NCBI GenBank assembly: GCA_021234155.1
Contig: JAJEKV010000018.1
Location: forward strand, 14,082,925-14,146,924
Origin: Isoetes taiwanensis
Lineage: Eukaryota > Streptophyta > Lycopodiopsida > Isoetales > Isoetaceae
Length of the DNA stretch: 64,000 bases
Reading direction: 5' to 3'
How positions within the stretch are numbered: position 1 is the stretch's first letter; every line of letters starts with the position of its first letter. Shown piece after piece: positions 1-25,230 of this stretch. Under the pieces are notes generated by a model that was not told the origin of the DNA, ran no database searches, and saw only the letters and a program-made list of their open reading frames with translations. A program made the translations under genes and the position numbers.

Positions 1-1424
1 CTGAGGTCTAGCAGCTGCTGGGCTTGTTGCTCTTGGGCTATAGCTTCCTGTAGCCCTCCCCTTATCCTGATAGTACTGTTGCTTATGTCCACTACCTTGA
101 AGGCATGTTCCTTGTAAGCTCATTGCTTTAGACGCTGCTTCTGACACTGTTCTGGGGTTTATTGCTCTCATCAGCTTCCTGATCTCTTCAATCAAGCCTT
201 CGATGTACCCCTTTCACTCAACTTTGGCATATAGAGCCTCAGCCTCATGAACTCTTCGGTGTATTTCTGGACTGTCTTATTGCCCTGCTCTAACCTGTAG
301 AATTGTTACATCATATGGCACGTGCTTCCTCGGCACGTAATGACGCTTAAATGCCTTGGAGAACTTCTTGAATCTGCAGCTATCTCTGCTTAACCCATGG
401 GCTTTGACATAGCCTTTCCACCAAATTCTGGCTGCCCCCTTGAGGTTGGCTGTTGCTACCCTACCCTTGTCCTTATCTTTCATGCTATAATCATTCCTGT
501 ACTCCCTCATTTCGTTCAACCAAGCCTCGGCTTCCATTCCAGACTTATTGTCTCATGAGAACTGTTCCAACTTCCTGGCTTTCCACACGTTGCTCAGTGC
601 AGAGTCGACTTTCTTCTAGTAGTCAGCTTCAATTCTGCCTCTATCATGGTTGGGACCCTCCCGGCGGTCCTACCAATCGTTGTCCTGCTCTTCAGATTCA
701 GAGTCAGAGTCGGAACTAGAGTTGGAGGAATCCGTGCTAGGTGATCTCCTTCTTCAATTTCTCTTCTTTGCTTTGTCTGTTCTGTCAGCCGGTGTTTGAG
801 GTAGTTGGACATTTTGGTCTGATCCGATCACTGTCCCCCCTGCCAGCAGAACTCTTATTTCGTGGATATCCAATCTTATTTGTGATATCGGCTATTCTGG
901 GGTTGGCTCAAACTCTTGGAACATGTTCCTTGGTTGAAACTGCCTTGCGGGTGTCTGCTCTTGACCAGGATGACCTGGTTGATGTTTGGAGGCATCCGAG
1001 CATGCCTATCAAATCCCGAGAGGGCAATCAGCATGAAGACTCCTCCTCCCCGTGGGTTGAACTGACGGTGTATGACTGCTATTCTTCCGTCGGTGAGGAG
1101 TGGAAGATAGAACCTGAGGGCTTTGTCGTGTCCTCCCTCTGCTGTTTGTTCTCCGGTTCTGATCCCGGACCTGTGCCTACCAGAGTATTCGTCACTTCTA
1201 TCATTTATCTGTAGTCGCGAAACATGGACTTGGAAGAGGTCAAGTTAATGCCGCCTTTTTCTCATCCAGCTGGCACTACTGCGGAGGTGCTAGACAGGAG
1301 CATGCTTGTTGTCTTTCCTCTGATGCCCATCCGCTCCTGGATGGCTATAAATTCCTCCTCGAAGGGTAGCTACTGTTGTGTTATCATCTGCTGGATGCCG
1401 GTGTACGCTTCAATGTCTGATGAC
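1..1424 (-). pseudogene. Decayed gag region of an old Ty3/gypsy element (the H3-carrying element)
   Basis: The best preserved part, about 277-537 on the minus strand, encodes EAWLNEMREY, then NLKGAARIWWKGY, then FKRHYVPRKH. This is the pattern of plant Ty3/gypsy gag (Retrotrans_gag: a WLxxM start, a GxAxxWW core and a basic FxxxYxP helix). Downstream, toward base 1, a second frame continues with EYTEEFMRLRLYMPKLSERG and a Gln/Ser-rich tail. Several in-frame stops and frame changes make it non-functional. The region joins 11256 onward once gypsy-1 and one TSD copy are removed, so it is the downstream continuation of the acidic ORF. The RT and integrase of this element would lie beyond the left edge. 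Confidence 0.65.
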
Positions 1425-3349: not shown

Positions 3350-3368
3350 TTCCTGGATTTCAGAACTC

Positions 3369-4963: not shown

Positions 4964-4968
4964 ACATC

Positions 4969-5829: not shown

Positions 5830-7113
5830 GCTATTCCAGAGGAAGACCTTGATGCTAGTGAGGTAAAGGCACTTCGTCCCATTCTAACCATTAATGCATC
5901 AGAGGAAAAAGACACTGAGGAGATTACAATCACAAAAAATGGTAAGACTAGAACCTTGTTTGTTGGAGATTTAATTGAATACCAAAATAAGGAGAACATA
6001 CAAATGTTTTTTGAAGAAAGGAAGGATGTGTTTGCCTGGGATTATTCTGAGCTCACTGGTATTAAAGCTGAGGTATGCCAATTTGAAATCAAGATTAAAG
6101 AAGGATGTAAGCCTGTGTTTCAAAAACTGAGAAGAATTAATGCTTCATTAATGGGATTAATCAAAGATGAGTTGGATAAAATGCTAGATGCAGGTGTTAT
6201 TATTGAAATCATTAATCCAGAATGGGTATCTTGCATTGTGCCTGTAGAAAAAAAGAGTGGTGCCTTGAGGATTTGCATTAATTATCGAGATCTCAACAAA
6301 GCTACCATCAAGGACTGCTATCCCTTGCCTTTTTTAGAAGAAATTTTATATGCTGTAGCAGGAAAAGAGATGTACTCATTCTTAGATGGATTTTCAGGAT
6401 TTAATCAAATTGGCATTAAGGAAGAAGATCAACCAAAGACCTCTTTTATTACCCCTTGGGGAACTTATGCAATGAAAAGAATGCCTTTTGGATTAATGAA
6501 TGCACCTGCTACTTTCCAGAGAGCTATGGACGTTATTTTTAGACCTATGTCTCCTCAAGAATTCAGAGTCTACCTGAATGACCTTTGCTTAGGATCTCAC
6601 CCTGCTAATCATTTGGAATTGCTTGCAAAAATATGCTCTTTGTGCAGGGACTCTGGAGTCAACCTTAACCCAAAGAAGTCTATTTTCTTTGCATCTAAAG
6701 GGCAACTTTTGGGGCATGAGGTGTCCAACAATGGTATACAAGTGGCACAAGAAAAGGTTGAAGCCCTCAAAAGACTGGTACCTCCCAAGAATTTGAAGCA
6801 GGTTAAAAGTTTTATTGGCATGACTAGTTTTCTTAGGATGTATATTCCTAATTTTGCTCATATTATAAGTCCTATTTCTAAACTGACAAGGATAGGCAGG
6901 ATTTCTAAATCTGAGAGCAAGTATGTCCCTGTCACATGGTCATCAGATTGTCAAGAGTCTTTTGAGTTACTTATAAAGTCCATTTGTGAGGCTACTCTTT
7001 TAAAAAAACCTGATTTGGATATGCCATTTGAGGTCTATATTACTATCACTAAAAAGGCCATAGGTCTAGCTATTCTACAAGACAAGCATACCATAGCTGT
7101 TGCCAGCAAATAG
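5776..7113 (+). pseudogene. Reverse transcriptase of gypsy-1 (YLND in the catalytic box)
   Basis: The uninterrupted frame carries all gypsy RT blocks: SGALRICINYRDLNKAT, YPLPFLEEI, YSFLDGFSGFNQI, TPWGTYAMKRMPFGL, ATFQRAMD, FRVYLNDLCLGS, LLGHEVSNNGI, LKQVKSFIGMTSF. The catalytic YxDD box reads YLND; gypsy-2 has YLDD. The change Asp to Asn at the first catalytic Asp would be expected to abolish polymerisation. The frame stops with TAG at 7111-7113, inside the following RNase H region. Confidence 0.92.
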
Positions 7114-7530
7114 TGGAGTTCAACTGAAGAAAAATACACTAGAATGTAGAAGAGTGCTGCTGCTCTTATGTTCCTTATTGACAGACAAGGTCACCTACTA
7201 TTGAAGAGTTCTGTTCAAGTCTATATGAAGCAAAATCCAATGGGATTGTTATTTGGTAAGGCTACCTCCAAACCAAAAATTCAAAGGTGGCTTGTAAGCT
7301 ACAAACCTTTGATATTTCCATTAAGGAATTACATCATGTGAAGAGTCCCAGTCTTTATTTACCTTACATTTTCTTTGATCATGAGGATGCAGTAGAGGTT
7401 GTTGACTTTGTGGATGCCTTAGCTTATTTGCAGGCAGAAGATGAAGAGCAGTTGCAACAGGATTGGCAGTCACCTATAAAAAATTTTCTACAATTCAAGG
7501 ATATGCCCTCAGGACTGACCTCGAGTTAGC
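7114..7530 (+). pseudogene. Degenerate gypsy RNase H / connection region (gypsy-1)
   Basis: The order of blocks is that of a gypsy RNase H: FEVYITITKKAIGLAILQDKH, then WSSTEEKYTRM, then KIQRW and CKLQTFDISIKELHHVK. The usual YTDAS is replaced by YITIT, so the first catalytic Asp is missing, and no AD-LSR end follows. Gypsy-2 shares the loss. The region probably survives as a structural tether between RT and integrase. Stops and frame changes occur around 7111, 7149 and 7290. Confidence 0.7.
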
Positions 7531-7565
7531 AAAGGAGATTTAAAGAAAAATGTAGGCAATTTAAA

Positions 7566-8744
7566 ATGATTAATGATGTTCTATGTAAAGTCAACAGGGA
7601 TGGACTATTACTGAGGTGTGTCAATGAAGAGGAATATGCTCTGACCATTAGAGAAATGCATGAAGGAGCATGTGGAGGCCATTTTGCTGGAGATACTACT
7701 GCCAAGAAAATCCTCAGGTCAGGTTATTATTGGCCTACAATATTTAAAGATTGTTATACTGCTATAAAATCTTGCCACAAGTGTCAAATATTTGGCAAAA
7801 AGATCCTCCTTCCAGCTGCACTAAACCCCATAATTTCTCCAGGACCTTTCCAAATATGGGGATTAGATTATATTGGCCCTATTAACCCCCCTTCTGCAGG
7901 ACAACATCAGCACATTATTGTAGCTACAGATTATTTTACTAAATGGACAGAAGCTATTCCTTTAAGACAGGCCAATGCTACTACAACAGCAAAGTTTTTA
8001 CATGAATATATCTGTGCACGGTTTGGTATTCCTCTACAATTGCACTCTGACAGAGGTACCCCTTTTGTGAATGAAGTTATTGCTAATCTGCTAACCATTC
8101 TTAAGGTCAAACATACCAAGAGCTCTTCTTATTACCCCCAAGGTAATGGTCAAGCAGAAGTTACTAATAAAGTTTTGAAAAACATTTTGTAGAAAACAGT
8201 AGATGATAATCAAAGGGATTGGCATGTCAAATTGGTGGATGCTCTTTGGGCTTATAGAGTTACTATTAAAGCAGCAACCACTCATACACCTTTCAATCTA
8301 GTTTATGGCATTGAAGCTGTGCTTCCAGTAGAGCTTGAGCTCCCATCTCTAAGGTTAGCTCACAAACTATGTTTACCTTTTGAAAATGCCTTGCAGGAGA
8401 GACTTGATGCCCTTTTGCATTTAGAAGAATATAGAATGGAGGCTGAGAATGCCAATCTGCTAAAGAAAGCCAAAGATTTGGCTGCCTTCAAAGCTGCTCA
8501 TAAAAAACAAGGGACTTTCAGAGCAGGAGAGCTAGTTTTAAAATGGAATAAATCAAGGGAAGACTCAGCTAGTAAGTTTGAAAATCTGTGGGAAGGTTCC
8601 TATGAAGTGCTGGAATCAGCAGGCACCAATTCTTATTGGTTAAAGGAATTAACTTCAGGGGTGTCACTTCCAAATCCCATCAACATTATTCACTTGAAAA
8701 GGTACTGGGATCAGCATATATGCTTGTCCCTTTTTATGCTTTAG
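7566..8744 (+). pseudogene. Integrase of gypsy-1
   Basis: The zinc-binding HHCC domain is visible as MHEGACGGHF, SGYYWPTI and SCHKCQ. The DDE core follows: WGLDYIGPI (D), LHSDRGTPFVNE (D), YYPQGNGQAEVTNK (E), then WAYR and FNLVYG. The C-terminal part (GELVLKWN, FENLWEGSYEV, NPINIIHLKRYW) is the usual gypsy GPY/F-like end, without a chromodomain. One TAG at about 8190 separates two frames; gypsy-2 has CAG there. Function in the family: 3'-end processing and strand transfer of the cDNA. Confidence 0.9.
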
Positions 8745-9537
8745 AATTTTTTAAATCAGAATTAGGATTAGATAGGTTAGATTCCTCTTTGTCTTGATTT
8801 TTAGTATTAATTCTTTCATTGAGTTCATGTTTGCAGCCAGCCAATTGTCAAGTGTCATCTGCAGGAGCATCCTTTTCTCATCCACATTCATCTGTTTCAC
8901 TGTGGTCCTACCTCCCACCTAGCTATTCATTCTTCATTTCATTCCCCCAAGCATGCACTCTGCGAATTCAGCTTCACCATCATGGCAGAGTTGGAAGAAT
9001 TAAAATTAACATGTTTATGTGTTTCCATGGCAGGTGCATCCTTTTCCCATCTATATTCATCTGTCACAAGTAGTCCTGCCATTCATTTGGACTCCTCATT
9101 CTTATTTTCATTCCCCCACAAAGCACTCTGCATTTCAGCTTCACCACCATAGCAGAGTTGCAAATTTTTGAAGAAAGGACATGCATTTTCTTGTTTTGGC
9201 GAGATCTCAACACTAGCATATTCATCTTATCTCTTTACATCATTCACGCTTCACTCACACCATCTCTTTATCATTCTTATACTTATTCTCATTCTATTCA
9301 CCCATCACACTCCACTCACACCATATTACCACCATATTCACATTCATCACACTCATTTTACCTCCCTATCGTCACAATATCACCACACTCACACTCATCT
9401 TTCTATTATTTGCACCCTACATTCTATTCCATCTTGTTCTCATTTTTCACACTTTGACAAAGTTTGAAGACCCCTCTATAGATTCCTTTTGGCATAATAT
9501 GGCTGAGGGGACCAGCCATTTTCTTGTTTTGGCGAGA
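8745..9537 (+). other. 3' untranslated region of gypsy-1 with repeats and PPT-like 21-mers
   Basis: There is no credible ORF. Two diverged tandem units (about 8845-9000 and 9030-9160) share a CACTCTGC, TTCAGCTTCACCA and GCAGAGTTG pattern. They are followed by a CAC/CATT-rich low-complexity stretch (9210-9460). A 21-bp motif ending TTGTTTTGGCGAGA occurs at 9184-9204 and again at 9517-9537, where it abuts the 3' LTR and occupies the polypurine-tract position. Confidence 0.7.
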
Positions 9538-11255
9538 TGTTGCCCCCAAAGGGCAACATACTAATTGTTGGTTCATATGTTAAAGTTAGGAAGGCTAAGT
9601 CAAAGGAGAACTTGGTAGTCAACATTGGTGTGAAGGTCAAAGGATATTTATCTTCAAGGTCAACTCCCATAAGGAATACTTCATTTGAGGTCAAAGCTAG
9701 TCAAAAAGATGCTGGGTTAAAGAAGATTGGAAGATGCTTTTTGAAGATTGGAAGTTAGAGTTTGGAAGATCCCATGGTACTTGGTTCCATCCCTTAGCCA
9801 TTTTTTATCCACCCCCATACCATATTCTCACCTCCCTTTTTGAATTTTCCCTAGTCATTTTCCCTTATACTCATATTTTTCCTTGCTCACCTTTTGCAAA
9901 TCATATTTTGCTTTCCCTAAGTCCTTTTTTAATGCATTTTATTTCCCCCATGGGATGTCCTACCTATTTCATATCTTTTTGCTTTATTTTCATTCCCCAT
10001 ATCACACCCTTGCAAATGCCCTTAGCCTAACTCTTATTTGCAACCTCTTATACTCCCTTGCTTCATTTACCATTGTGCCCTAAGTACCCATGCCACCCAA
10101 ATATCCCCCATGGAATATTCCAGTTATGGTATCTACCTAGAATATTCCCCAAAAGATTAGGGTTGATCAAAAGCTTCATAATTATTTTTGGGTATCTTTT
10201 GAACCATGGCCTAGCTTCTCGAAATTGCTAAATACAGCATATTCTCAGTTTATACCCCAAAAAATACGGCCATCGTATCGCAAAATTTCTGGAAAAATAC
10301 TATCGAAGAACCCTAAGTTTGGAAACCTGCTCGAATCACGCCGGAATGGAATCATTAGGCTCAAGACGTTTATGAAGTATCTGAGTGTTCCACAGTTCGA
10401 TTTGAGAAAATTGGACTGATATTCCTGTTATGATATTATTTTATGACCTCCTGAGATATTTTGATGATTGATTTATGATCCTGAGACCCCTATTCATCTT
10501 GTATTACCTTCATATCAATGAAAATTGCCTGCCAAGTGCTTAAAAAGTTGACTGTCATGATCTTTTAGTATTTTTGCCATACAAACATTTCTACAGTAAA
10601 ACATCCCATCATTTTTTCTTGCATATGACCACTTGCCCTTCTTTTCTCATCATATTTGCACCTGTGTGCACAAAAAGTTCGAAAAAAAACCATTCCAAAC
10701 TCAAGATATCATTTTTTTCATTATATCTAATACAATTTTAGACTGTTATTCACAAAACTGTGCCAAAAAAATAGTGTTAATGATCCAAAATATGATTTGA
10801 TTGCATGCCCCTCACCTTTGGGACCTATACTTCACTTCAGTTTTGGAATCTCTCAAAAATTCCCTCTGCAACTCAAATTACAAAATTCTGAGATCTGTCT
10901 GTAGTTCTGACTGGTATTGACCAAAAATTGACCCAACTTTGAGATCGAATATCTTGCAGATTAGAACTCAGACTTGGTCAAGATCTTCTCCCTTGCTTGC
11001 CTATAAATTTTCTATACAAGTCACAATCATTTGACCTTGGGAATCAATCCACCTATGAGTGCTACATCAATTTGAGTGAGGGTTCCATATTCTTGAATTG
11101 GAAAAGGTATGAATGCTTGATATTTGAGCTTTTTCTTTGAGAAATTCTTGTGTAGACTGATAACCTTAAGTGATCTGGAGGTTCTAACCCCAACTTGAGC
11201 ATAAACTCAAGTTGGCTTCTTGTGTTTGACTCTCTAGCCAGCTTGAGGGTCAACA
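9538..11255 (+). repeat. 3' LTR of gypsy-1
   Basis: Direct repeat of 1425-3327, starting TGTTGCCCCC with the same terminal hairpin and ending GGTCAACA, followed by TSD ATGAC. It is shorter than the 5' LTR mainly because of one internal deletion of about 185 bp near 10363. Otherwise the two align along their length with scattered substitutions. Confidence 0.92.
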
Positions 11256-11544
11256 ATGACGACTGGCAAGAGTAAGTCTGGGCCTCCCTGATGCTAACTG
11301 GAAAGATCTATATCTCCCAATCGATGAAGTCATCGAGGTCGAGCTGCTGGCGTAGAAGATGCAGAAGCTCGTCTACCCTCTAGTCTCTGTCTCTTCACTC
11401 TGGAAGATTCTTTATGTCGCGCAGCGTCAGGTATTCCTCTCCTTGGATGATGACCGGGGTTAGATTGGCGATGTCTAACCCAAGTGGAGGAGCTGTCCTC
11501 GTTACTCTCAAACCTTCTTCGAAGCCTTGAGGCTCTTCTTCTGC
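11256..11544 (-). pseudogene. Readthrough extension of the acidic ORF, toward gag
   Basis: Directly after the TAG that ends the acidic ORF, the same minus frame continues open for about 50 codons (AEEEPQGFEEGLRVTRTAPP, then LTPVIIQGEEYLTLRDI) to a TGA. The TAG is explained by a single CAG to TAG change. Beyond it the frame is broken, and the sequence runs into the gypsy-1 TSD at 11256-11260. It is probably the junction between the acidic ORF and gag of the same old element. Confidence 0.45.
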
Positions 11545-12198
11545 CTATTGTCTCTCTTGTATGGGATCGACGTCGATGATGTCTTCAGCGTCGTAGCCCT
11601 GTCCTTCTTCTGCCTCTTCCTCTTGCTCTGACCCTTCATACTCCAAGAGCATTTGCTCTTCTGCTTCTGCTTCTGTGGCCATGGGTTCAATCTCCAGAGG
11701 CTTAACGGAGAGTTCCCCTATCTGGGTTTGGGCTTTTTGGGACAAAAAGATAGCTACAACTGCAGTATAGGAGAAATGTCTCTTCAAACTTATGGATATA
11801 GTCATGTAATTTGGCATGCGAGCAGCTTTATTTTCTAGATACTTGTCTATGTTTGGGATATCATTCAGAGCTGCACAGAGGGCTGTTCTAGGTGCAAAAT
11901 AACCTATGCATGGGGGGAGTTCTACTAGGGAAGGTCCTATCTTGGCATGAAACTTAGTCATGATCTCTTGGTAAAAAGGTGTGGCAGTTATGGTGGCATC
12001 CACATCGATCTCCTTTTGGAAAACAATGAAGACCGAGTTGATGTCAGCCCCAGCCACATGAGCAGTGGCGCTGTACCATTGCCTGAATACAGTGGTGGCC
12101 ATGATGCTGATGCTGATGGGCTTATCAAACAGATCATAAAATGCCTCTGGGAGCTGAAAAATTGCCTTGGAGTGGATGCAAATGAAGGTGGTGGTCAT
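11545..12198 (-). CDS. Acidic-tailed ORF upstream of gag in the H3-carrying element; function unknown
   Basis: Open frame of 217 codons from the ATG at 12198 (MTTTFICIHSK), intact to TAG at 11545. A later in-frame ATG (MATTVFRQW) could be the real start. The first ~150 residues look globular (LPEAFYDLFDKP, TPFYQEIMTKFH, LCAALNDIPNIDKYL). The last ~50 are strongly acidic (EAEAEEQMLLEYE, EEEAEEGQGYDAED). I do not recognise a family. It lies between the H3-like ORF and gag on the same strand, like the extra ORF1 of some Tat/Ogre-type elements. The acidic tail is reminiscent of histone chaperones, but that is only a suggestion. A matrix-like gag N-terminus is an alternative. Confidence 0.5.
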   Translation of the reverse strand: MTTTFICIHSKAIFQLPEAFYDLFDKPISISIMATTVFRQWYSATAHVAGADINSVFIVFQKEIDVDATITATPFYQEIMTKFHAKIGPSLVELPPCIGYFAPRTALCAALNDIPNIDKYLENKAARMPNYMTISISLKRHFSYTAVVAIFLSQKAQTQIGELSVKPLEIEPMATEAEAEEQMLLEYEGSEQEEEAEEGQGYDAEDIIDVDPIQERQ

Positions 12199-12260
12199 AT
12201 TTATAGGCAAAACCCTGATTTGAGAAATTTTTAGGGTTTGGAAATATCTATCACTTCAAG
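12199..12260 (-). promoter_or_regulatory. Telo-box and CCTATAAA leader before the acidic ORF
   Basis: On the minus strand, AAACCCTAAAA (12229-12239) precedes CCTATAAAT, which ends one base before the ATG at 12198. The H3-like ORF has a comparable pair upstream. TATAAA this close to the ATG cannot be the TATA box for that ATG, so either a later ATG is used or the motif is part of a shared leader. Confidence 0.35.
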
Positions 12261-12356
12261 GTCCTACTAAGCAATTGATAGGTACTCTAGGTCTAAAGTA
12301 CATCCTAATGATCCCATTGCAACAAAGTTTATCTAATTTGAAGGTTTACTCTGACC

Positions 12357-12426
12357 ACTCACACAGTGCGCGAGAGGCATTTTCAAAACTTTTGGAAATG
12401 GTCCTGGCGCACTGTGTGACGGGTGG
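12357..12426. repeat. Hairpin repeat, copy 1 (13-bp perfect stem)
   Basis: Arms TCACACAGTGCGC (12359-12371) and GCGCACTGTGTGA (12407-12419) are perfect inverted repeats around a 35-nt loop containing CAAAACTTTTGG. Copy 2 lies 198 bp away. It sits in the spacer between the H3-like ORF and the acidic ORF. Confidence 0.75.
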
Positions 12427-12554
12427 GCTCCTGTTTGGGTCCTAGATGGCTCTAAAATTATGATGTAAAGATAGAATCCTACTTATCTCACCGAGTAGTC
12501 TGTGCCCTTACTTTCTACATTTGGACAAGTCTAGACATAGATTGGTGGCCAAAC

Positions 12555-12624
12555 ACTCACGCAGTGCGCGAGAGGCATTCTCAAAACTTTTGGAAATGGT
12601 CCTGGCGCACTCTGTGAGGGGTGG
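12555..12624. repeat. Hairpin repeat, copy 2 (stem with two mismatches)
   Basis: This is the same 70-bp unit as copy 1, with an almost identical loop. Arms are at 12557-12569 and 12605-12617, and the stem has two unpaired positions. Outside the two units the flanks differ, so the unit itself was duplicated. Confidence 0.72.
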
Positions 12625-12759
12625 GGCCCAAAACAGTGACTTGTTTTCCAAATTAACTAATTCCAAATGCACCTGCCATTATTACAACCTTATTAAATAC
12701 AATTTTACATTTTACAACTTAATCAAAACACGTTTTTATATTTACAAATTTTTTTACAA

Positions 12760-12862
12760 TTACATCATGAACCTAGCTAACTCCATGTCTCTAGGCATAC
12801 AAGTGACTCTCTTTGCATGGAGGGCACATGCTAGGGAATCTTTGAAGTGCGAGACTAACTTC
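12760..12862 (-). pseudogene. C-terminal end of the histone H3-like ORF (downstream of the copia-1 insertion)
   Basis: Continuing from 18500 across the copia-1 insertion and its ACTTC duplication, the same frame encodes [28 protein letters not shown] and then TAA (12760-12762). This matches the H3 end LVGLFEDT, IHAKRVTIMPKDIQLARR residue for residue at most positions, covering helix alpha-2 end, loop 2 and alpha-3. The very last residues of H3 (IRGERA) are missing. A TAG lies just after ALQEAAE, two codons upstream of LVSHF, in the position of an Ala or Asp; a C-to-T change from CAG would explain it. Confidence 0.8.
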
Positions 12863-13416
12863 TGAAGAATTTGTTATGCACAAGAACAAGTTTAGTTCAA
12901 AACATTTACTTAGCAAGTTTCATATTCATAGTCTTTCATACCATCAAATATCATGAAATTCAACTTATCTCTATAATACCATGAAATTCAATAGCCCAAA
13001 ACATTCAATGGTTTTCAATGTGCATAATCGACATTTACTGTAGCAATGGGAATATCAGATAAAACATCTTCATTCAGACCTCTCCTTTGAGCAATCGGAT
13101 GCACGACTGCGGATTCCCCCTTGCCGTCTATCTCCCTTACAGCTCTACTTCCTCATTAGATTAATTTCGGCCAGATCCACATAAGGAATCCGGCTCCAAA
13201 CGGTTCGGCAGCTCCAGCTTTCTTTCTATATATGCCAATGCTTATCTGTTCATATTTTATTAGACCAACTAGGTTCACCGACCTATGAACCAGGCTTATC
13301 ACATTTCCCATGGTTTGAATTTTCCCTTTTCCTTTACTTCATTATCCACTTGAAACTTATAGGTTCTATGCCATCGTCTCCACAATATTGCATCATGAAC
13401 CTAATATTTATTTTCA
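12863..13416 (-). repeat. 3' LTR of copia-1
   Basis: Direct repeat of 17945-18499 with few differences (for example around 13226-13240). Just inside it, at 13417-13426, is the polypurine tract, read on the minus strand as GAAGGGGGAA. Confidence 0.93.
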
Positions 13417-13674
13417 TTCCCCCTTCATGAGCAATATTCATCTGTTTCAACTGTCATCTCTTCAACAACTTCAGCAAAATACTTGTGCCTGTAACAAATG
13501 AAAAATCTGTTCTGAATGATTCATTTATGGGTCTGTATCAACTTCAGCATAATACTTGTGCCTATAACAAATGAAAAACCTGTTCTGCTATTTCTTTAAA
13601 ACTATAAAAGCACCTTCTACAGCAAAATTTGAAACCTGTAGCATCTTTAACAAGGAAATATCTTCTGCTAATAT
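13417..13674 (-). other. 3' untranslated region and PPT of copia-1
   Basis: Lies between the polyprotein stop and the 3' LTR. It contains a direct duplication of about 48 bp (13465-13512 and 13540-13588, sharing CAACTTCAGC, ATACTTGTGCCT, ACAAATGAAAAA) and the PPT next to the LTR. No coding potential. Confidence 0.7.
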
Positions 13675-16600
13675 TCAACATCTCAGGTTTTGCGTAGCTT
13701 CTACTGCATCTGAAACTCCAAGCAACTTCTGGAAAATCTGAAACTTGCCCGTGCTTAAAGGCTTTGTCATAATTTTGTCTGCAACCTGCATATCTGTGTG
13801 AATATATTCTACTGTAATAAGACCCTTAGCTACCATATCTCTGATGAAATGAACATGTACTTCAATATGTTTAGTTCTTTCATGTAGAACAGGATTTCTC
13901 GTGATTGCAATGCAGCTTATATTGTCTGACCATAAACTTGTTGGCTTTACTTGCAACATGTCAAGTTCATTTAATAATCTTCTAATCCAAATAATTTCTC
14001 TGGAAGCCAAAGATGCTGCCTTATACTCTGCTTCAGCAGTTGACATGGCTATGCTTCCTTGTTTCTTACTTCTCCATGAAATGGCACCTCCTCCTAACAT
14101 TAATGCATAGCCTGAAGTAGATTTCCTCGTATCTACATCGCCTGCCCAATCTGCATCTGAGTATGCAGTAAGAGTTAGATCCTTACTGCTATATGTGACA
14201 CCATGGTTTTGTGTTCCCTTTAAGAACCTCAGAATTCTTTTCGCTGCCTGCCAGTGCTGCTTGCCAGGATTATTCAAGAATCTACTGAGCAGATTTACTC
14301 CATAAGAGATGTCAGGTCTTGTGCAATTAGAAACATACAATAGGCATCCGATTAATTCTCTGTAAGGTACTTTCGACATTTCTTCTAATTCTGTTTTGTT
14401 TGATGGACATAACTCAGTGCTAAGTTTCTGTCCAGTTACTAAAGGTGTAGATACCTCCTTGCACGACTCCATCTTGAATCTTTTAAGCATGCCTTGTATG
14501 TTTCCCTTTTGAGTGAGAGTAAGGACTCCCTTTTCTCTATTTCTAGAAACTTCTATACCTAAAAATTTCTGTAATACACCTAGATCTGTCATCTCAAACA
14601 TGTCACACAGAATTTTCTTGCATCTATTCATGCATTCCATTTTGTCTGCCACCATTATGCAATCGTCTACATATAGCGCTACAATGCAAAACTCATCTCC
14701 ACATCTAAGTTTATACACATTCCCTTCATTTTTGAGTTTTATAAACCCATGCTCCTTCAAGAAATTATCCATACACAAATACCATTTTCTCGGAGATTGT
14801 TTTAGACCATAGACTGCTCTTTCTAACTTCCAGACCTTATTATCTTCCATTTCAAAACCTTTGGCTTGCTTCATGTACACTTCCCCTTCAAGTTTTGCAT
14901 TCAAAAAGGCTGTTTTTACATCCATGTGATGGATTTCCAGATTATTTGCATTTGCATATGCTAGTAGAACTCTTATACTTGTAAGTTTTACTAGTGGCGA
15001 GAAAATGTCATCAAAATCAATTCCTTTTCTTTGCGTGAAGCCTTGGGCTACTAATCGTGCTTTGTATTTCTTAGAGCCATCACTACCATCCTTCAATTTG
15101 TAAATCCATTTACTTCCAACGATATTTTTGTCACATGGCTTCTCTTCTATTTTGTACGTGTTTGTCCTTTTGAAGGAATTAATCTCATCCATCATTGCCT
15201 TTTTCCACTCAACTGCATTTTCACAGTTAATTGCCTCTTCATAAGATTGAGGTACTTCTGGTTCAATAATGGCCATCACTGCTTGAATTTCTTCTTCAGT
15301 CAGTCTTTTACTTCTTCCCCCTTCCTCTCTTCCGAACTTTGTAATATCAAACTCAGTTCCCTTTTGCAATTTCTCCACTTCTGTCATTCTTTTTTTTCTT
15401 GTGAGTTGAGCTTCTATTTCCACTGGCTGATTTTCCCTTTTATCATGTTCTCCTTCTGATATGCTATCAGCCCTAAAGTTTTGTTCACTGTCATCTTCTT
15501 CTACTATATCCGTGACTGTTTTAAAATCAGCAGAGTCATCTTTTGCTTCACTTGTTGCTTAATTTCTTGTTGTTTCAGACCTGTTTTCAGCAAAGCCTTC
15601 AGCTTCATCATTCAACTTTGCACGAGACTTGTACAAAATGCTCTCACCAAAACTTACGTCTCTGCTGATTATTATTATTTTTCTCGCTGGATCATAGAGC
15701 TTATAGGCCTTGGACATTTCATCATAACCTACCAGGAAGCTTACTATAGCTCTGTCGTCTAGTTTTCTTCTTAATTCTCCAGGGACATGAGCAAATGCCA
15801 GGCAGCCATATGCTCTAAACCTGTCATAAGTTATTCCTCTATTATTCCACAGTTCCTCTGGAATATTTCCTCTTATGCTTGCTGAGGGCAACCTGTTTTG
15901 CACATATACTGCAGTGTGAATGGCTTCTTCCCATAAATAATTTGGCAACCCTGCGTGTTTTAACATTGCTCTTGCTGCATCCAAAATTGTTCTATTTTTC
16001 CTTTCTGCTACTCCATTCTGTTGAGGTGAATACCTGCAAGTTAGTTGTCTTTTTATTCCCTTTTGTGAACAGTATCTTTTAAACTCACCTGAGATATACT
16101 CTCCTCCTCTATCAGACCTCAAACATTTAATTTTCCTGTTGGTTTCCCTCTCCACTTCAGCTTCAAACATTTTAAATGCTGCAAATGCCTGATCCTTGGA
16201 TTTTAGAGTGTAACACTTCGTCTTCCTGGTGTAATCATCTATGAAGGTCATAAAAAACTTCCTTCCATGTAAGCTTCTTACATTTATTGGTCCACAAAGA
16301 TCCGAATGTACAAGATCTAAAGGACCTTTTGCTCTTTTGCTTGATCTGCCAAATACCAGCCTAGTATGCTTTCCTAGTTTACATCCAATGCATGTAAACT
16401 GATCATGTTCTTCACTTGAGGCATCAATCCTTCCCTTTTTTATCAAGAATTTCACATTATTACAATGTGTATGGCCCAATCTTTCATGCCAAACTTTTAT
16501 GGATGGTAATGATATAGCATTTACACTACTTGCCAAAGCGTTATGAAAACCAAAAAGATTGCCCACACGTTTTGCTAAAAATCTCATTTCATTATTGTAG

Positions 16601-17919
16601 AACACTTTACAATGATGCTTTTCGAAAACTACTCTGTAACCCAAATCAACCAACTGGCTGATGGAAATAAGATTTTTAACAATCTTTGGAACACACAAAA
16701 CATCACTTAGATTTACTACGTTTCCTTGCAAATCAAAAAGTTCTAACATTCCAGTTTCCTCCACCTTTTGGAGATCTCCATCTCCCATTTGCACATAACG
16801 AGTTACTCTGGCACTCCTTTGTTTTAGTTGGTTGGACCCTTTTACTATGCTTCTCTCAGCTCCACTATCTAAAAAATATAGATCATGATTAGCTTTACTC
16901 TCAAAAACACTTAATGTATTATCAATCATTACCTCTGCATCAGGGTCTTCTTCATCAAACTCAACCTCCTTTGCTACATTTATGGAAGAATTTCCTCTCC
17001 CCATATTTTCCCTTCCTCTACCTCTGCCTCTATAGTTGCCTCTGCTTCTTCCTCTGTAACCAGTCTCTTTATTTCGTCCTCTTCCCATGTCTTTTGGACT
17101 GGAACAGTTAGAGGATATATGTCCGAACCCGTCACAATTGTAACATCTCATTTCTCTGCCTTTGGGACAGTTCGCCCTCAAATGTCCATACGCTTTGCAT
17201 GCATAACAGGGACCAATCTTACCTCCACGTGCCTTCCCTTTCCCAGCAAACAATACCTCAGTTTCTTCATCTTCATCTTCTTCTTTAGTCACCTTCCTTT
17301 GCTCCATTTCTGTCCTAATTAGAGCCTCTGCCTTTTCTCTATTTCTTCCAACTGTTCTTATCAAGGTACTTAACTGTCCAAAACTTGAGAAAGCTCTTGC
17401 AAGATTCAGTACCTGGAATTCTCTAGTGATTGGAACCTTTGCTGCCTCCAAGTCTGCAATGATGTTATCAAACTTTTGAAAAAACTGAGTTAGATTTTCA
17501 TTCTCCTTGAATTTCAGTTTCCTTAACTCCCTAAGCATTTCAAGCTGGGATGTATTTTTCACTTCATACGTTTTGATCAGGAACTCCCACATCTCTCTTG
17601 GAGACTTGTCTCTAATTTTGTGCACAATATTAGAGCTTAACTTACTTGCGATAATAACCTTGGCTTCTTGTAGTTTGCCTTTCACACTAGTATTCCCTGT
17701 GCCTCCAGCTCCACCTGTGGCAGCTTCAGAAGAACCTTCACCCTGATGTACACTTGTTGAACTACTCTCACCTTGTACGTCATTATTACCAATGACAAGT
17801 TCCCAAAGACCCTCTGCCTCCAACACATCCTGCATTCTGCCTTTCCATGATTAGAAACCAGCCTCACCTTCAAAAACATTGATACCACTTAACAAGCTTG
17901 CACCCAGTCTAGTTGCCAT
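13675..17919 (-). pseudogene. Copia-1 gag-pol polyprotein with two premature TAA codons
   Basis: The ATG at 17919 (MATRLGASLL) opens a single frame of about 1414 codons. Order: gag; knuckles CYACKAYGHLRANC and CYNCDGFGHISSNC; protease YFLDSGAERSIV; GAG-pre-integrase VWHERLGHTHC with CIGC; integrase with HSDLCGP, RSDRGGEYI and QNGVAERKNRT; RT with DVKTAFLNAKLEGEVYM and ALYVDDCIM; RNase H with AYSDADWAG, STAEAEY, WSDNIS and ADKIMTKPL. Catalytic residues look intact. In-frame TAA codons lie near the N-terminus (about 17851, GF*SWKGRM) and after integrase (15556-15558). Both are explained by CAA to TAA, so the copy is a very recent pseudogene. Confidence 0.95.
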
Positions 17920-17931
17920 GATAGCTGTACT

Positions 17932-17943
17932 GCTCTGATACCA
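17932..17943 (-). promoter_or_regulatory. Primer-binding site, tRNA-iMet (copia-1)
   Basis: The minus strand reads TGGTATCAGAGC one base inside the 5' LTR (17945-18499). This is the standard initiator-Met primer site of plant copia elements. Confidence 0.92.
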
Positions 17944-17944
17944 A

Positions 17945-18499
17945 TGAAGAATTTGTTATGCACAAGAACAAGTTTAGTTCAAAACATTTACTTAGCAAGT
18001 TTCATATTCATAGTCTTTCATACCATCAAATATCATGAAATTCAACTTATCTCTATAATACCATGAAATTCAATAGCCCAAAACATTCAATGGTTAACAA
18101 TGTGCATAATCGACATTTACTGTAGCAATGGGAATATCAGATAAAACATCGTCATTCAGACCTCTCCCTTGAGCAATCGGATGCACAACTGCAGATTCCC
18201 CCTTGCCGTCTATCTCCCTTACAGCTCTACTTCCTCATTGGATTAATTTCGGCCAGATCCCCATAAGGAATCCGGCTCCAAACGGTTCGGCAGCTCCAGC
18301 TTTCTTTCTACACTTGCCACTGCTTATCTGTTCATATTTTATTAGCCCAACTAGGTTCACCGACCTATGAACCAGGCTTATCCCATTTCTCATGGTTTGA
18401 AATTTTCCCTTTTCCTTTACTTCATTATCCACTTGAAACTTATAGGTTCTATGCCATCGTCTCCACAATATTGCATCATGAACCTAATATTTATTTTCA
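17945..18499 (-). repeat. 5' LTR of copia-1
   Basis: Partner of 12863-13416, with ends TGAAGAATTT and TTTATTTTCA. It is followed at 18500-18504 by TSD ACTTC and then the histone-fold sequence. Confidence 0.93.
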
Positions 18500-19568
18500 A
18501 CTTCTACTCTGCTGCCTCTTGTAGTGCAAGTAGCATGTCATCTGTTACTCGCTTGGTCTTGTCAAATTCTTGCAAGATTTCATGGGTTAATTTTGCGAAG
18601 GCGGCCCTTAAAATTAGCAGTCCGTAGCTCCTATGAAAATGTCGAATCTCCCGAGCAGCTCTTGCAAAATAGGAGTCCGCCTTTCTCTTCATTGGTTTCT
18701 TAGGTGGTACGGGTTTCAAGGTATTCTTCTTGGTTGGTCTTCCTCCCTCCACGTATGTTACCTTATTTGCCTCATAGTATTTTGAGTACTCCTCATACAT
18801 CTTCATGTACTTTTGGTACTCTTTCAACTTCTTCCTGTACTCCCGCTCGTGCTTGAGTATAAAGGACTCCCGTGCCGGTTTGCCCTTCTTGGGGTCAGTT
18901 GTTGGCTTCGGTCACTTCGGGTATGGAGGTGCTGTTGCAGATTCTTCCTCCTCATTATCTGGGTTTGAAGGTCCCGAGCCTTCTGCTGGGCGGGGGACTC
19001 TTGACGCATCCTCGTCCGAGTTGTGTCTGATGAAGACGATGGTGGCCTGTCGGGCTCCCGCTCAGGTATGCTAACCCCTTTACTTGATGATGTTTTCGTT
19101 TTCCTCTGGGGTTTCTTTGGTACTTCTAAATCTTTCCCTTTGGCCTCCCTCAATTTCTTGCGCTCCTCCTTCTCTGCAATTCTCTTCCTCTTTGCTGTCT
19201 CTTCCTCTTACACATTTTCTTTAGCCAACGTGCTAGCTCCTCTGGTAGCAGCTTGTCCTCCTCGTCCTTCTTGTCTTGGTCATTTCCGGGTCCCATAGGC
19301 CGATTGGCCTCCGCGGACGATAAAAGAACCTTCCTTCCTTTCTTCCTTCCTGATCCTCCGAGTTTTCTTGGTTATCAGGGCCCTGGGTTTGTTCTTGCTC
19401 ATCCTGCTGCTGCTGGTCCTCCTTCTCAGCATCTGGATTAGGGTTAGGGTTTTCTTCTTGCCTGGCTCGCTCTTCAGCCTCTCTGGCCTTCTGTTGAGCT
19501 GCAAGAACTTGGGCGCTGGTGTAATTGTCTGGCATAACCACTCGAGCAGTTTGTTTGGTACGGGCCAT
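18500..19568 (-). pseudogene. Histone H3-like ORF: H3 N-terminus, long charged tail and first part of the histone fold
   Basis: The ATG at 19568 opens MARTKQTAR, identical to the first residues of histone H3, but VVMPD follows in place of KSTGG. A charged Glu/Gln/Lys-rich tail of roughly 300 residues follows (RAREAEERARQ-type, EEDKLLPEELARWLKKM, PKKPQRKTKTSSS, PDNEEEES, REYRKKLKEYQKYMKMYEEY). Then KRKADSYFARAAREIRHFHR, LLILRAAFAKLTHEILQEF and ALQEAAE match H3 alpha-N, alpha-1 and alpha-2. Loop 1 has H3 length, while EIRHF and the AAF segment recall CENH3. The tail needs about three frame changes and has one TGA (a CGA to TGA change would explain it). The fold is split by copia-1. Canonical H3 is only about 136 residues. 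No intron is visible. Confidence 0.78.
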
Positions 19569-19716
19569 GTTTTGAAATATGTCAATCACCTTCTGAGCGC
19601 CTAAAAAATTGGAGAAGAAAGGTGAAAATGAAGAACCCTAAGGGCCTATCTATAGGTCTGGGAATTTTAGGGTTTGGACCTGCAATTTCATGTTATACCA
19701 TTATGTCAAGGATTAG
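19569..19716 (-). promoter_or_regulatory. Leader/promoter-like segment of the H3-like ORF with telo-box
   Basis: The minus strand has AAACCCTAAAA (19665-19675) and CCTATAGATAGG (19645-19656) about 80-100 nt before the MARTKQTAR start. The acidic ORF has the same telo-box plus CCTATA arrangement. Telo-boxes are known in promoters of plant translation and histone genes. The segment is cut by the gypsy-2 LTR at 19717, so anything further upstream is lost or displaced. Confidence 0.4.
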
Positions 19717-21571
19717 TGTTGACCCCCAACCTGGCTTAGAGAGTCAAACACAAAAAGCCAACTTGAGTTTTCACTCAAGTTGGGGTTAGAACCTCCAGAT
19801 CACTTAAGGTGATCAATCTGCACAAGAATTTCTCAAAGAAAAAGCTCAGTTACAGAGTTCTCATACCTTTCCCAATTCTGGAATATGGACCTCTTACTCA
19901 AATCGATGCAGATCTCATAGGCAGATTGATTTTCAAGGTGAGATGACTGTGACTTGTTCAAAAAAGTTGTAGGCAAGCAAGGATGAAAATCTTGACCAAG
20001 TCTGAGTTTTAATTTGTAAGATATTCGATCTCAAAGTTGTGTCAAATTTTGGTCAATATCAGTCAAAACTACAAACAGAGCTCAGAGTTTTGTAACTTGA
20101 GTTGTAGGTTAAATTTTGAAGAAATTCCAAAACTAAGATGCAATATAGATCCCAAAGGTAAGGGACATGTTGTCAAATCATGATTTGAATCACTAAAACT
20201 ATTTTTTTGGCACTGTTTTGTGGATATCAGTCTAAACCTGTATCAGACAGAGTGCAAAAAATGGTAACTTGAGTTTGGAATGGGATTATTTCGAAATCTT
20301 TGTGCACACAGGTGCAAATAAGATGGGAGAGGGAGTGCAGATGGTCATATGCAGGAAAAAATGAAGGAATCCTTCACTGTAGAAATGTTTGTGATGCAAA
20401 AATACTAAAGGATCATGACAGTCAATTTTTTGAATACTTGGCAGTCAATTTTCATTGATATGAAGGTAATATAAAATAAATAAGAGTCTTAGAAACATAG
20501 ATCAATCATCAAAATAGCTTAGAAGGTCAATAAATAGTATCAAATCAAGAATATCAGTCCAATTTTCTCAGATCAGACTGTGGAACACTCAGATACTTCA
20601 TGAACGTCTTCAGATCATGCTCAGCATGTATCAATGTCGAGGTTTGATGCGTCTGGGCCTTCAAAAAACTCTGTCATTGTTTTCCCCGGTATATAGATTT
20701 AGGTTTAATGATTCTGGCATCTTAGGGCTTGATCATAGGCTTAATGGGATGCTGATGAGCGGGAATCCAAGAATAGGTAATTTTTGTAGCTTAAGATTCC
20801 AGTTCCGGCGTGATTCGAGCAAGTTTCTAAGTTTAGGGTTCTTCACTGTATTTTTCCAGAGTTTGCGCGATACGGTGGCCGTATTTTTGGAAGTATAAAC
20901 CAAGAATATGATGTATTCAGCCATAGAAAAGCTAGGCCATGGTTTCAAAGGGTGCCTTATAAAATAGAGATAGTTTGATCATTTGAGGAGATGGCAACCC
21001 TAAGTTTTTGGGGAATATGCTAGGTCTAGATACCATGCATTGGGATATTCCATGGGTAACATGAATATTTAAGGCACAATGGTGGGCAAAGCAAAATGGT
21101 CATAAAATTCCAAACAAGAAATGGACTAGGGGTATTTATAAAGGTGTGATAAGAATGGGAAAAGGGATATGAAATGAGAAGACAAAGGCATTAGAGAAAA
21201 GAAATTAGGCAAACAAGGTGTGATTTGGCAAAAAGATGAGCAAGGGAAATATAAGCATAAGGGGAATATGACTAGGAAAATGGGGGTAAGAATATGGATA
21301 AAAATGACTAGGAGGTGGAACCTAATACCATGGGGTCTTCCAAACTTTGTCCTCCAAACTTCAAAAAGCATCTTCCAATCTTCACAACCCAGAATAGTAT
21401 AGAGCATCCTTTGAAAACCTTTGACTTCTGATAGAGCATTTTCCATGGGATTTGACCTTTGAAGATTGATATTGTTTGACCTTCATATCAATGTTGACTA
21501 CCAAGCTCCTTTTGATTTAATTCTTCCACAATAACTTGACCTACTTCAACACATGAGCTATGGGGGCAACA
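19717..21571 (-). repeat. 3' LTR of gypsy-2
   Basis: Direct repeat of 31079-32947. Its outer 5' end starts TGTTGCCCCC but lacks about 20 bp containing the second arm of the terminal hairpin. It ends GGTCAACA at 19717. Confidence 0.9.
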
Positions 21572-22452
21572 TCTCGCCAAAACAAGAAAATGGCTGGTCC
21601 CCTCAGCCATAAAGGGTCTTCATATCTGCTCCAAAGTGTATGAATGAGGATTATGGTAAAAAGAGGGTGTAAAGTGTAAGTGTTGGTGGGATAAAAGTGA
21701 GTGTATTGGTAAAGAGGATGTAAGTGAGTAAAAAAAGGTGAGAATGAGTGTGAATATGACAAGGTAGTGATGGAAATGTAGTGTATGAGATGAGATGAGT
21801 GTGCAAATATTGGAATTTCGCCAAAACAAGAAAATGTGTGAAAAGAAGGTAAGAATGAGTGTGAATATGGTCAGGTGGTGATGGAAATAGGGTGTAAAAG
21901 GGTGGAGTGGATGTGCAAAAAGTTGAGATCTCGCCAAAACAAGAAAATGTGTGCCTCCCTGATCCTTAAAAATGCAACTCTGCTATGAAGGTGAAGCTGA
22001 ATTGCAGAGTGCTTTCTTTTGGGAATGAAAACAAGAATAAGGAGTTTAAATGGATAGCAGGACCACTCATGGCAGATGAATAAAGATGGAGAAAGGATGC
22101 ACCTGTCATGGAAACATACAAACAAGTTAATCTTGATCCTTGCAACTCTGCTATGATGGTGAAGCTAAATTTGCAGAGTGCACTTTTAAGGAGATAAAAT
22201 GAGAGTACATGGCTGAATGGAGGGCAGGACCACAATGAGACAGATGAATGAAGATGGAAAAAGGGTGCTCCTGCAAATGACACTTGGCAATTAATAAAAC
22301 TCCCTGTTCTGAAGCTATTTGATAACTCATCCTTCATGCTGGCTAATCTGCAAATATAAACTCAATGAAAACATTAGTTCTAAATTTAAGACAAAGTGAA
22401 ATCTAATCCAACCTCTTCTAATTTTTAACTTTAATTCTAACTTATCTAAGTT
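21572..22452 (-). other. 3' untranslated region of gypsy-2 with three PPT-like 21-mers
   Basis: The 21-bp motif ending TTGTTTTGGCGAGA (minus strand) occurs at 21572-21592 (against the LTR), 21816-21836 and 21929-21949. Between the copies are ACTCA/CATT-rich stretches. Upstream are two diverged roughly 190-bp tandem units like those in gypsy-1. No ORF is supported. Confidence 0.7.
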
Positions 22453-22957
22453 CTAAAACATAAAAAGAGACAAACATATATGCTGATCCCAGTACCTTTT
22501 CAGGTGAATAGTGTTGATAGGATTTGGAAGTGGCATCCCTGAAGTTAGTTCCTTTAACCAATAGGAATTGGTACCTGCAGGTTCCAACACCTCATAGGGG
22601 CCCTCCCAAAGGTTTTCAAACTTACCAGCCAAGTCTTCCCTTGATTTATTCCATTTTAGGACTAACTCTCCAGTCTTGAAAGTCCCTTGTATTTTATGAG
22701 CAGCTTTGAAAGCAGCCAAATCCTTGGCTTTTTTTAGCAAATTAGCATTCTCAGCTTCCATTCTATATTCTTCTAAATGCAGAAGGGCATCCAATCTTTC
22801 CTGCAAAGCATACTCAAAAAGGCAAACACAACTTATGGGCCAACCTCAGAGATGGCAGCTCAAGTTCTACTGGAAGCACAACTTCAATGCCATATACTAA
22901 GTTAAAGGGTGTATGGGTGGTTGCTGTTTTAATGGTGACTCTATAAGCCCATAGAGC
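22453..22957 (-). pseudogene. Integrase C-terminal part of gypsy-2
   Basis: Starts at the SBE-element insertion with WAYR and continues through FNLVYG, the LQERLDALLHLEEYRMEAE helix, GELVLKWNKSREDLAGKFEN, LWEGPYEV and NTIHLKRYW to the stop. Colinear with gypsy-1 8250-8744. A frame change lies near 22806. Confidence 0.85.
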
Positions 22958-23867
22958 TGATATGATTAAGGAAACTTAAAGATAATAACCACTTGTTCAA
23001 CAGTTTAAGAGATAGAGAACAGACGAGATAATAACTAGATTCTTATATCAGCTCTTCTCAAGAGCGATTGTACAAGGTTTCCACAACCAGGGGTTGGAGC
23101 ATCCAGTTTCCACCCAACCGGATCCAGAAAAACTAAGGCAATTTCAAGGGATTTAGGAAAAGGAAAGATCAAGGCTTTTTCCTTCAACACATGATCTTCC
23201 CCAAAATACAATGGCATAAGGCTTTGATATGCTTAGGCAAGAAGAACTGTCAAGAATAGGCTCAATTCAATCTTCAGCTGTTCAAAAGGACAAAGCTCTT
23301 AAGATCGACTCCCAAGCTGTCGTCGAGTCCCCTGCCCAGATCAATTTAAGAACAGCCCAAAAAACCAGGAATCTCTTATAACTCCTTTTGCTCAATCGGC
23401 TAGCAAGCGATGCCGGATTCAATGGCGAGGAGCCGGAAGCTAGTTTGATGATGCCGCAAAATGATGGTGGAAGTGCGCTCTGCCGGATTTGAGGATGCAT
23501 GGCCGGGGCTGATTCATTGATGCCGAAATTGCTATCGAGTCTTCCGCTTCCTTATGTCTGTCACCAGAAGCCGCCCTGCTATAGCAGTTTGGTTCCCCCT
23601 TTTGTTAAAGGCCACGTTCCTGTTCTATTCTGGTAACCGCCTTTTTTGCTAAAATATGGTTGCATGAACTCCCCTTTAAAATATCGCACCCTTTTTGGCA
23701 AAGATAGTTGCATGTGCCTTTTCTCATAAAATATCATCCCTTAGCTATGGAAAATATAGTTGTATGTAGAATATTTCGCCCTTATTCTTTTGCCTTACAA
23801 CCATTAGTTTCCATGTGCCCTATTGCCTTAATCTTCTGGACCACTCCCCCTAGCATGCTCCATATCA
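22958..23867 (-). repeat. 3' LTR of the SBE-carrying element
   Basis: Direct repeat of 25231-26135. Differences concentrate in one GC-richer stretch (about 23305-23370 and 23540-23580), often at CAG/CTG sites. A purine tract, GAAGGGATGGAAT on the minus strand, lies at 23868-23880. Confidence 0.92.
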
Positions 23868-24002
23868 ATTCCATCCCTTCTTAAAGAAGATCGTCCGCGA
23901 TCTTTCGAATGCACTTGAGATGGGTCCATCCCTTCTCAAAAAAAATTTGCGTCCAAATCAAATTGCATCGAAGGGTTCCCTAGTCCTGCAAACTTAAGAA
24001 AC

Positions 24003-24126
24003 AGTTATGGATATCCGCGTACTTCCGCAGTACGATATACCCTTGTACCTCCGCGGTACTACTTGATTGTATCTCCACGATACAGTATCTCCACGATACC
24101 CAATCATTGTATCTCCGCGATACTGA
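24003..24126. repeat. Cluster of five 15-bp imperfect palindromes
   Basis: Consecutive near-palindromes GTACTTCCGCAGTAC, GTACCTCCGCGGTAC, GTATCTCCACGATAC (twice) and GTATCTCCGCGATAC occur within about 120 bp. All follow GTAYYTCCRCRRTAC and can fold on themselves. They lie between the enzyme fragment and the 3' LTR. Confidence 0.75.
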
Positions 24127-24238
24127 TGTAAACTTTGTCAGGCCTATTGCTACAACTACAATTACCATTCTTCAAGAATTTACATCAAATGCGCCATGCT
24201 TACCTAGTAGTTTAATTTTTGTTCCACACAAAGAAAAT

Positions 24239-25143
24239 CAACTTACAGATCTTAGTCTAAGAAATGTAAATTTTACTATGTTTACCCCAAGATGATGATA
24301 GAACATTGATGTTGTACCATCAAAATTGAGCCGCCAACGCAGATTGGAAAGTAGGAATCTCTGAACTTCCCAGTTACCATAGCTGAATAAACGACTATCC
24401 CAAAGTCGATGGTATCCTCCATCTCCATAGTAGGCATGCTCCATTACAACCATTAACTGTACGGTATTGTAATTGTTTCTCTTGATTCGTGGAAGTACAG
24501 TATCTGCAAATTCAATATATGTTGAGACCCTGGGCTCCTTTGAACTCATGCCCACATGTGCCTCATATATGCGTGGAGCTACACACTTATTTGGGCGTGG
24601 ATATTTGGATTTATATCTTTCTGCCTCAGGTAGATCCCAATAAATGCCATCTTAACTTGCTGTAAACTTGCCAGGCTCAACTGTTGCCCAGTGTATCCAC
24701 GCAAGAATACGATCAAACCAGGTGCCATCTGCTATTTTCATAAGCAACTTAACTTTGGGACCATGAGTAATAGCAGGCTTTCCATTAACATCTGGTATTC
24801 GAATTGTCCACACTCCCTATTTATCCTTATCCATCTGGTGAGATGACCCATCCCAGTTATTGAAATCACCAACAAGTTATGCCACCTGTGCAGCAGGTGC
24901 CCATTCTTGATAGACCAACCATCCATCCTTATAGTTGAAACCATACTTCTGAAATCTGAGAGACAAGGGCCTCTCATAAGAAGCTAGATTAGGGTCCACA
25001 TCTATGATAGGCAGTCTGCCTTTCTCATAATTCATATTGTTAGCTTCCTCCGCTCTTTTGCTCTCAGCATAAACAACATTTGGCTTATAATTTCCCGACA
25101 GCTTTGCTTGCCTTCCTGGATTGCAAGGAACTGGGACGGTCAA
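24239..25143 (-). pseudogene. Captured, intron-free fragment of starch branching enzyme I (SBE I / BE family B), internally deleted
   Basis: One minus-strand frame with three in-frame stops gives PIIDVDPNL, RFQKYGFNYKDGWLVYQEWAPAAQ, VGDFNNWDGSSHQMDKDK, GVWTIRIPDVNGKPAI, PRIYEAHVGMSSKEPRVSTY, VLPRIKRNNYNTVQLM, YYGDGGYH, LWDSRLFSYGNWEVQRFLLSN and FDGTTSM. These are the CBM48 and early GH13 blocks of plant SBE I. Exon-sized blocks are fused without introns, so the copy came from mRNA. Two deletions are visible: after DPNL, and from the GYH of YYGDGGYH to the GYH before LWDSRLF. The second removes the barrel with its DVVHSH region, so the fragment cannot be an enzyme. It has the same orientation as the element. 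Confidence 0.9.
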
Positions 25144-25216
25144 TAAAATGATTCTTAGATATCAGCTTCAGCAACATTGAAGCATTGGGCCATTGATCAG
25201 GTAGGAGGATCAACTC

Positions 25217-25228: not shown

Positions 25229-25230
25229 CT

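Follow-up and report, generated by a model that had tools for sequence, protein, structure and literature searches.

The question raised by this locus is whether a plant retroelement has carried its own gene for histone H3. The window, which is the whole 64,000-nucleotide stretch of Isoetes taiwanensis DNA that was analysed, contains an H3-like sequence in two parts on the minus strand: the first part (18504..19568) encodes the ARTKQTAR peptide, a charged tail and the start of the fold up to QEAAE, and the last part of the fold (12760..12862) lies beyond a Copia insertion. The first-pass annotation had described one intron-free gene with the exact H3 N-terminus, a giant tail and a C-terminal H3 fold, placed in a gypsy-type element upstream of an acidic ORF and a gag. 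The motifs, the fold and the strand order stand; the single ORF does not. The N-terminus MARTKQTAR starts at 19568, about 300 charged tail residues precede REIRHF, and the fold runs from EIRHF to ALQEAAE, ending at 18504, and on through a remainder that ends at about 12760. The coding sequence is broken by three frame changes, two in-frame stops and the 5.6-kb Copia element. The portion at 18504-19568 holds all three frame changes (tail frames 0, 2, 1 and 0 in order) and one stop, a TGA ahead of PKPTT; the other stop, a TAG, is located between QEAAE and KLVSHF. Read through its breaks, the sequence yields 387 residues. An intron is ruled out as the cause of the gap in the fold, the gap being a Copia element with LTRs and a target-site duplication (TSD). 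Broken in these ways, the copy is unable to yield protein as one piece. Judged by its sequence, the likeness to H3 is real and no chance match; the gene, now decayed, encoded an unusual, very long-tailed histone H3.

A Pfam search, the check that had been proposed together with the annotation, bears out the H3 identity: the Histone family (PF00125) matches 18504-18911 on the minus strand (6.1e-07, 30.2 bits, cut-off 26.4). With the fold joined across the insertion and its stop written as X, the best PDB match is H3.3 (8.7e-19), and BLASTP against canonical H3, the reference used also for residue numbering, gives 41/82 identical residues (50%) in an ungapped alignment (E=5e-23). By tblastn, residues 104-128 of canonical H3 match the part at 12760..12862 with 64% identity (E=2.3e-07). 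A significant match to the H3 family extends across the whole fold; if the family were delimited by the canonical H3 tail (K4, K9, S10, K14, K27, K36), or by an open reading frame, the sequence would fall outside it, in the latter case through its frame changes, TGA, TAG and Copia insertion. In the protein database, 32 proteins of 7317 candidates pass an E value of 0.001; all of them align over the H3 fold, with 19-30% coverage of the query. The model predicted without an alignment for a 135-residue fragment, in which the fold is incomplete, is helical, with a mean pLDDT of 72.6.

At 21 of 27 chosen fold positions the canonical residue is kept, including R83, C110, H113, R116, D123 and L126; the altered positions are R63, K64, R69, R72, F84 and A88 (canonical H3 numbering). 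Five of the kept residues, C110, H113, R116, D123 and L126, are what we take to be H3–H3′ contact residues. Identical fold columns vary less across other H3 proteins than changed ones (Mann–Whitney p=0.00045), and a median-split test of the fold changes is not significant (p=0.080), most of the proteins compared in these tests having been picked up through similarity to the H3-like query itself. The changes sit at variable columns, and we take the pattern as a sign that purifying selection once acted on the fold.

The suggestion that the protein could act on centromeric nucleosomes finds little support. Loop 1 has the length of canonical H3 and lacks the insertion that lengthens this loop in the CENH3 rows of the same alignment (HTR12 and Candida CSE4, P0018). 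No CENP-A or CENH3 name appears among the best 60 of 174 PDB matches to the fold. That the sequence is a host gene for centromeric H3 (CENH3) in decay, as the EIRHF motif, the ELAR ending and the long divergent tail might suggest, is very improbable in the light of these features; the tree does pair the sequence weakly with Arabidopsis HTR12 (53% bootstrap, 92 SH-aLRT), but the end branch is long (1.11) and the placement is therefore unsure.

Only ARTKQTAR is kept from the canonical H3 tail, and the remainder of the tail is unlike H3. Positions 9 and 10 are both V, replacing K9 and S10. The tail piece at 19233-19637 is matched by six Pfam families, the best of which, CDC45 (0.0009, 18.1 bits, cut-off 34), we take for a low-complexity likeness; the piece at 18824-19207 matches no Pfam family. 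An H3 fold behind a tail of hundreds of residues is also found in proteins P0013, P0021, P0028 and P0029. P0021 starts with MARTKQTARK and P0028 with MARTKQSARK, and P0013 and P0029 hold MARTKKTARK and MARTKQTPRK internally; their folds, however, are much closer to canonical H3, and BLAST covers 21-22% of the H3-like query. In P0009, an H3 fold is joined to a PF02902 (Ulp1-type protease) domain. P0009 and the long-tailed proteins could represent additional H3 genes carried by mobile elements or viruses. Scans of viral contigs gave 52 pattern-matching stretches for the acidic ORF, 92 for P0021 and 7 for the H3-like fold, none of them confirmed.

The order of H3-like sequence, acidic ORF and gag holds on the minus strand, as annotated. 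The acidic ORF occupies 11545-12198 in the ORF list (minus strand; it may itself begin at the ATG at 12102) and is separated from the H3-like sequence by an AT-rich spacer (12199..12759, minus). It matches no family of Pfam or NCBIfam at E values up to 1 and has no homolog among 236 protein candidates; its model, predicted without an alignment, is uninformative (mean pLDDT 45.2). The gag, interrupted by stops, lies at 1..538 on the minus strand and runs off the window edge. It is assigned to the Ty3/gypsy type by matches to PF19259 Ty3_capsid (7.7e-6, 25.9 bits) and PF03732 Retrotrans_gag (4.5e-5, 24.0 bits), both slightly below the curated cut-offs of 29.1 and 24.1, and is on the same strand as the H3-like sequence.

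These parts are now split by two insertions. The Copia element nested in the H3-like sequence (12863-18499, minus; RVT_2, rve and Retrotran_gag_2 in Pfam) has LTRs at 17945-18499 (555 nt) and 12863-13416 (554 nt), which share 539 identities with 15 mismatches and 1 gap (97%). Its TSD, GAAGT, is present on both sides, with one copy at 12858-12862. Against proteins, 4006 of 7986 scored candidates pass 1e-50 with the Copia pol; the top identity among the best 120 of the 4006 is 46%, and the named ones are mostly from plants, with one from Phytophthora. Gypsy element A (1425-11255, plus; RVT_1, RVT_3 and Retrotrans_gag in Pfam) is nested between the acidic ORF and the gag and is flanked by the TSD ATGAC (1420-1424 and 11256-11260). 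Within element A (3303-7113, plus), an RVT_3-type RNase H domain (4948-5745) is located upstream of the reverse transcriptase.

The TSDs at the LTR ends of both insertions are perfect 5-bp repeats, so the H3-like sequence, the acidic ORF and the gag were formerly contiguous. With both insertions set aside, 562 bp separate the H3 stop from the acidic ATG, and 2386 bp separate it from the gag. The three frames of the joined stretch contain stops at 39/755, 39/755 and 29/754 codons, and the blocks poor in stops do not share one frame. The acidic frame seems to continue, interrupted by stops, toward the gag, and the acidic ORF and gag may once have formed one ORF.

Composition likewise supports one unit. 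The GC content is 49.3% in the H3-like sequence, 46.0% in the acidic ORF and 47.8% in the gag; it is 38.3% in element A, 38.9% in element B (the upstream neighbour) and 38.2% in Copia, and the background (44 tiles from 33-64 kb of the window) has a mean of 39.5% and a maximum of 45.9%. At third positions, the GC fraction of the fold is 0.54, of the N-terminal tail 0.47, of the acidic ORF 0.50 and of the gag 0.52, as against 0.32-0.34 in the Copia pol and the gag and reverse transcriptase of A. The observed/expected CpG ratio is 0.58 for the H3-like sequence, 0.44 for the acidic ORF with the stretch to A and 0.46 for the gag, as compared to 0.11 for A, 0.25 for B, 0.26 for Copia and 0.47 for the background; this depletion, milder than in the neighbouring elements and near background, suits host genes too.

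A host origin could also account for features ahead of the two ORFs. The 148 nt upstream of the H3-like ATG (19569..19716, minus) hold the TATA-like sequence CCTATAGATA at 19647-19656, 79-88 nt ahead of the ATG, and another, CCTATAAATA at 12198-12207, abuts the first acidic ATG (positions counted by hand). TATA-like sequences near both ORFs suit separate genes and weigh against one transcript of a retroelement. An LTR with a primer-binding site (PBS) was considered for the region preceding the acidic ORF, a reading that is not supported, because CCTATAAATA directly adjoins the first ATG and there is no space for these. Further upstream, TGGTAT at 19695-19700 starts like the iMet PBS of Copia and element C, a weak match of 8/12 bases by hand count. 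The spacer has a GC content of 38.9% and contains a nearly identical pair of 70-nt direct repeats (at 12554-12623 and at 12356-12425, counted by hand), which look like promoter or enhancer repeats.

The sequence might accordingly be the pseudogene of a host H3 variant, originally a gene or a retrogene, that lies by chance beside a gag remnant of the same strand, both having later been broken by transposons. We consider this possible but rather unlikely. The TATA-like sequence, the AT-rich spacer ahead of the acidic ORF and the near-background CpG ratio are consistent with it, and it is favoured by the plant H3-like variant genes described in PMC4357034, which have altered N-terminal tails with K4, K9 and K27 substitutions and occur with or without introns. 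Chance proximity, however, has to explain a gag on the same strand at 2.4 kb and the GC and third-position GC common to the two, and the one host-derived coding sequence available for comparison, a single decayed example in element C, has a GC content of only 41.1%.

Gypsy element B (19717-32947, minus; delimited by self-BLAST and its LTRs) ends just upstream of the H3-like sequence. It was rejected as the carrier, since the H3-like sequence sits outside its LTRs. These LTRs are 89.6% alike and the flanks of the element mismatch (ATGGG vs CTAAT); B is possibly a recombinant of two elements. As B ends there with unmatched flanks, the upstream continuity of the H3-like sequence is lost. Nested in B is element C (22958-26135, minus), a non-autonomous LTR element recognised by its LTRs (25231-26135, 905 nt, and 22958-23867, 910 nt), its TSD (GCTCT) and its primer site; AGTGGTATCAGAGCGAG follows the first LTR, the primer site being TGGTATCAGAGC. 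The interior of C is a decayed coding sequence of 1,4-alpha-glucan (starch) branching enzyme of about 250 codons, with rice-type chloroplastic enzymes as the best PDB matches (5.1e-91), a sign, together with the plant names among the Copia pol matches, of a plant source; the sequence is continuous apart from one inner deletion, as if derived from a spliced transcript. Such capture of coding sequence therefore occurs in this genome.

Element C makes it conceivable that the H3-like sequence travelled in a mobile element of its own, either a C-like non-autonomous LTR element or a DNA transposon, adjoining the gag-bearing one; H3-like genes are indeed carried by fungal hAT elements (PMC3538342, PMC6710886). 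The regions upstream of the H3-like sequence and the acidic ORF are weakly alike: their score of 69 is reached in 0/200 shuffles (maximum 65), and the match is the best of 630 tiles (56 vs 49 for the next). The likeness is, however, not the best in the reverse direction, where a score of 57 stands under a 58 and is tied with another 57, and the sequence above 32947 does not resemble the spacer (188/200 shuffles score equally high). No LTR was found around the H3-like sequence by the repeat search and self-BLAST, nor any inverted repeat at the minimum length of 120 used in the general repeat search. Separate cargo is, on balance, improbable.

We favour the reading in which an old retroelement had the H3-like sequence as an accessory first ORF ahead of its gag, and put the chances of this at close to even. 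That it is part of the gag-bearing retroelement, as the first-pass annotation had it, is likely, though unproved: order, strand and former contiguity speak for membership, and no LTR, PBS or pol of such an element is visible in the window. The repeat search and self-BLAST revealed no LTRs around the H3-like and gag unit, which leaves the window at one edge and is cut upstream by B; no pol was seen within the window, the gag itself reaching its edge. The lack of visible LTR, PBS and pol, the TATA-like sequences near both ORFs, the AT-rich spacer and the single decayed copy seen in the window all count against one retroelement. In all, the H3 identity and gene order of the earlier interpretation hold, its element membership is likely and its centromeric role has little support.

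If the H3-like sequence and the gag do belong together, the locus would represent the decayed 5′ portion of an old retroelement whose gag is of gypsy type. The first ORF of this element would have encoded an H3 variant of about 390 residues, in which an intact ARTKQTAR peptide and a long charged tail precede a histone fold. The element may have picked up either an H3 cDNA or an H3 gene lacking introns and then retained it under selection. The protein would pair with host H4 and, given that the H3–H3′ contact residues are kept, with a second H3, and might enter nucleosomes on the DNA of the element itself. H3K9me2 is the usual silencing mark of plant retroelements. With the K4 end of the tail preserved and V replacing both K9 and S10, nucleosomes of this kind could be open to active marks but not to H3K9me2. 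Beyond the sequence itself, every step of this mechanism is one that we infer, and the full proposal, namely a plant gypsy lineage encoding a long-tailed, K4-keeping, K9-lacking H3 that was selected and made the nucleosomes of the element resist H3K9me2 silencing, is an unlikely one.

The first-pass annotation knew of no described LTR retrotransposon with an H3 gene. This agrees with a full-text search of open-licence literature (titles and abstract beginnings), where no LTR element with a histone gene is found among the matches listed; the word "histone" is also absent from the main text of reviews on giant transposons (PMC6431247) and on additional ORFs in plant LTR elements (PMC7264820). 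Fungal DNA transposons with H3-like genes have, however, been described. H3L genes are reported in hAT transposons of Pyrenophora tritici-repentis, with 26 copies that have insertions in the N-terminal tail (PMC3538342), and of Pseudocercospora fijiensis and relatives, the captured P. fijiensis copy being without introns (PMC6710886). The likeness is an H3-like gene within a mobile element, membership being unproved here; hAT elements, however, are DNA transposons with terminal inverted repeats, whereas the present sequence is from a plant, has a gypsy-type gag as neighbour and a tail of about 300 residues, and is seen in one copy. Gypsy elements of Klebsormidium nitens carry Dnmt3 in the Pol polyprotein, in many copies under purifying selection (PMC5890265), and are similar in that a gypsy element acquired a host chromatin gene that selection then preserved; Dnmt3 is an enzyme inside Pol, whereas here a histone stands upstream of gag in one decayed copy of unproved membership. 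Orchid Gypsy elements carry an ORF for an AlkB-type RNA demethylase (PMC9289625); they too are plant gypsy elements that have an extra ORF derived from a family of host genes, and the gene differs.

The combination of an H3-like gene with a gag-bearing retroelement would be new. Confirmation would add an LTR element with a nucleosome component to the gypsy captures of Dnmt3 and RNA demethylase and the hAT captures of H3, and would provide a naturally occurring H3 variant that uncouples the K4 site from the K9 site. It would also permit a direct test of whether elements escape silencing through a changed histone and not through marking enzymes. Should other copies share the layout, this would be a jumping element with its own histone.

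Rfam and tRNA scans of the window gave 0 matches. Elsewhere in it, the region 41820-48262 contains copies about 80% alike, spaced at about 1.9 kb, with no ORF of at least 100 residues in the ORF list, and a perfect tandem duplication of 160 nt is located at 53372-53691.
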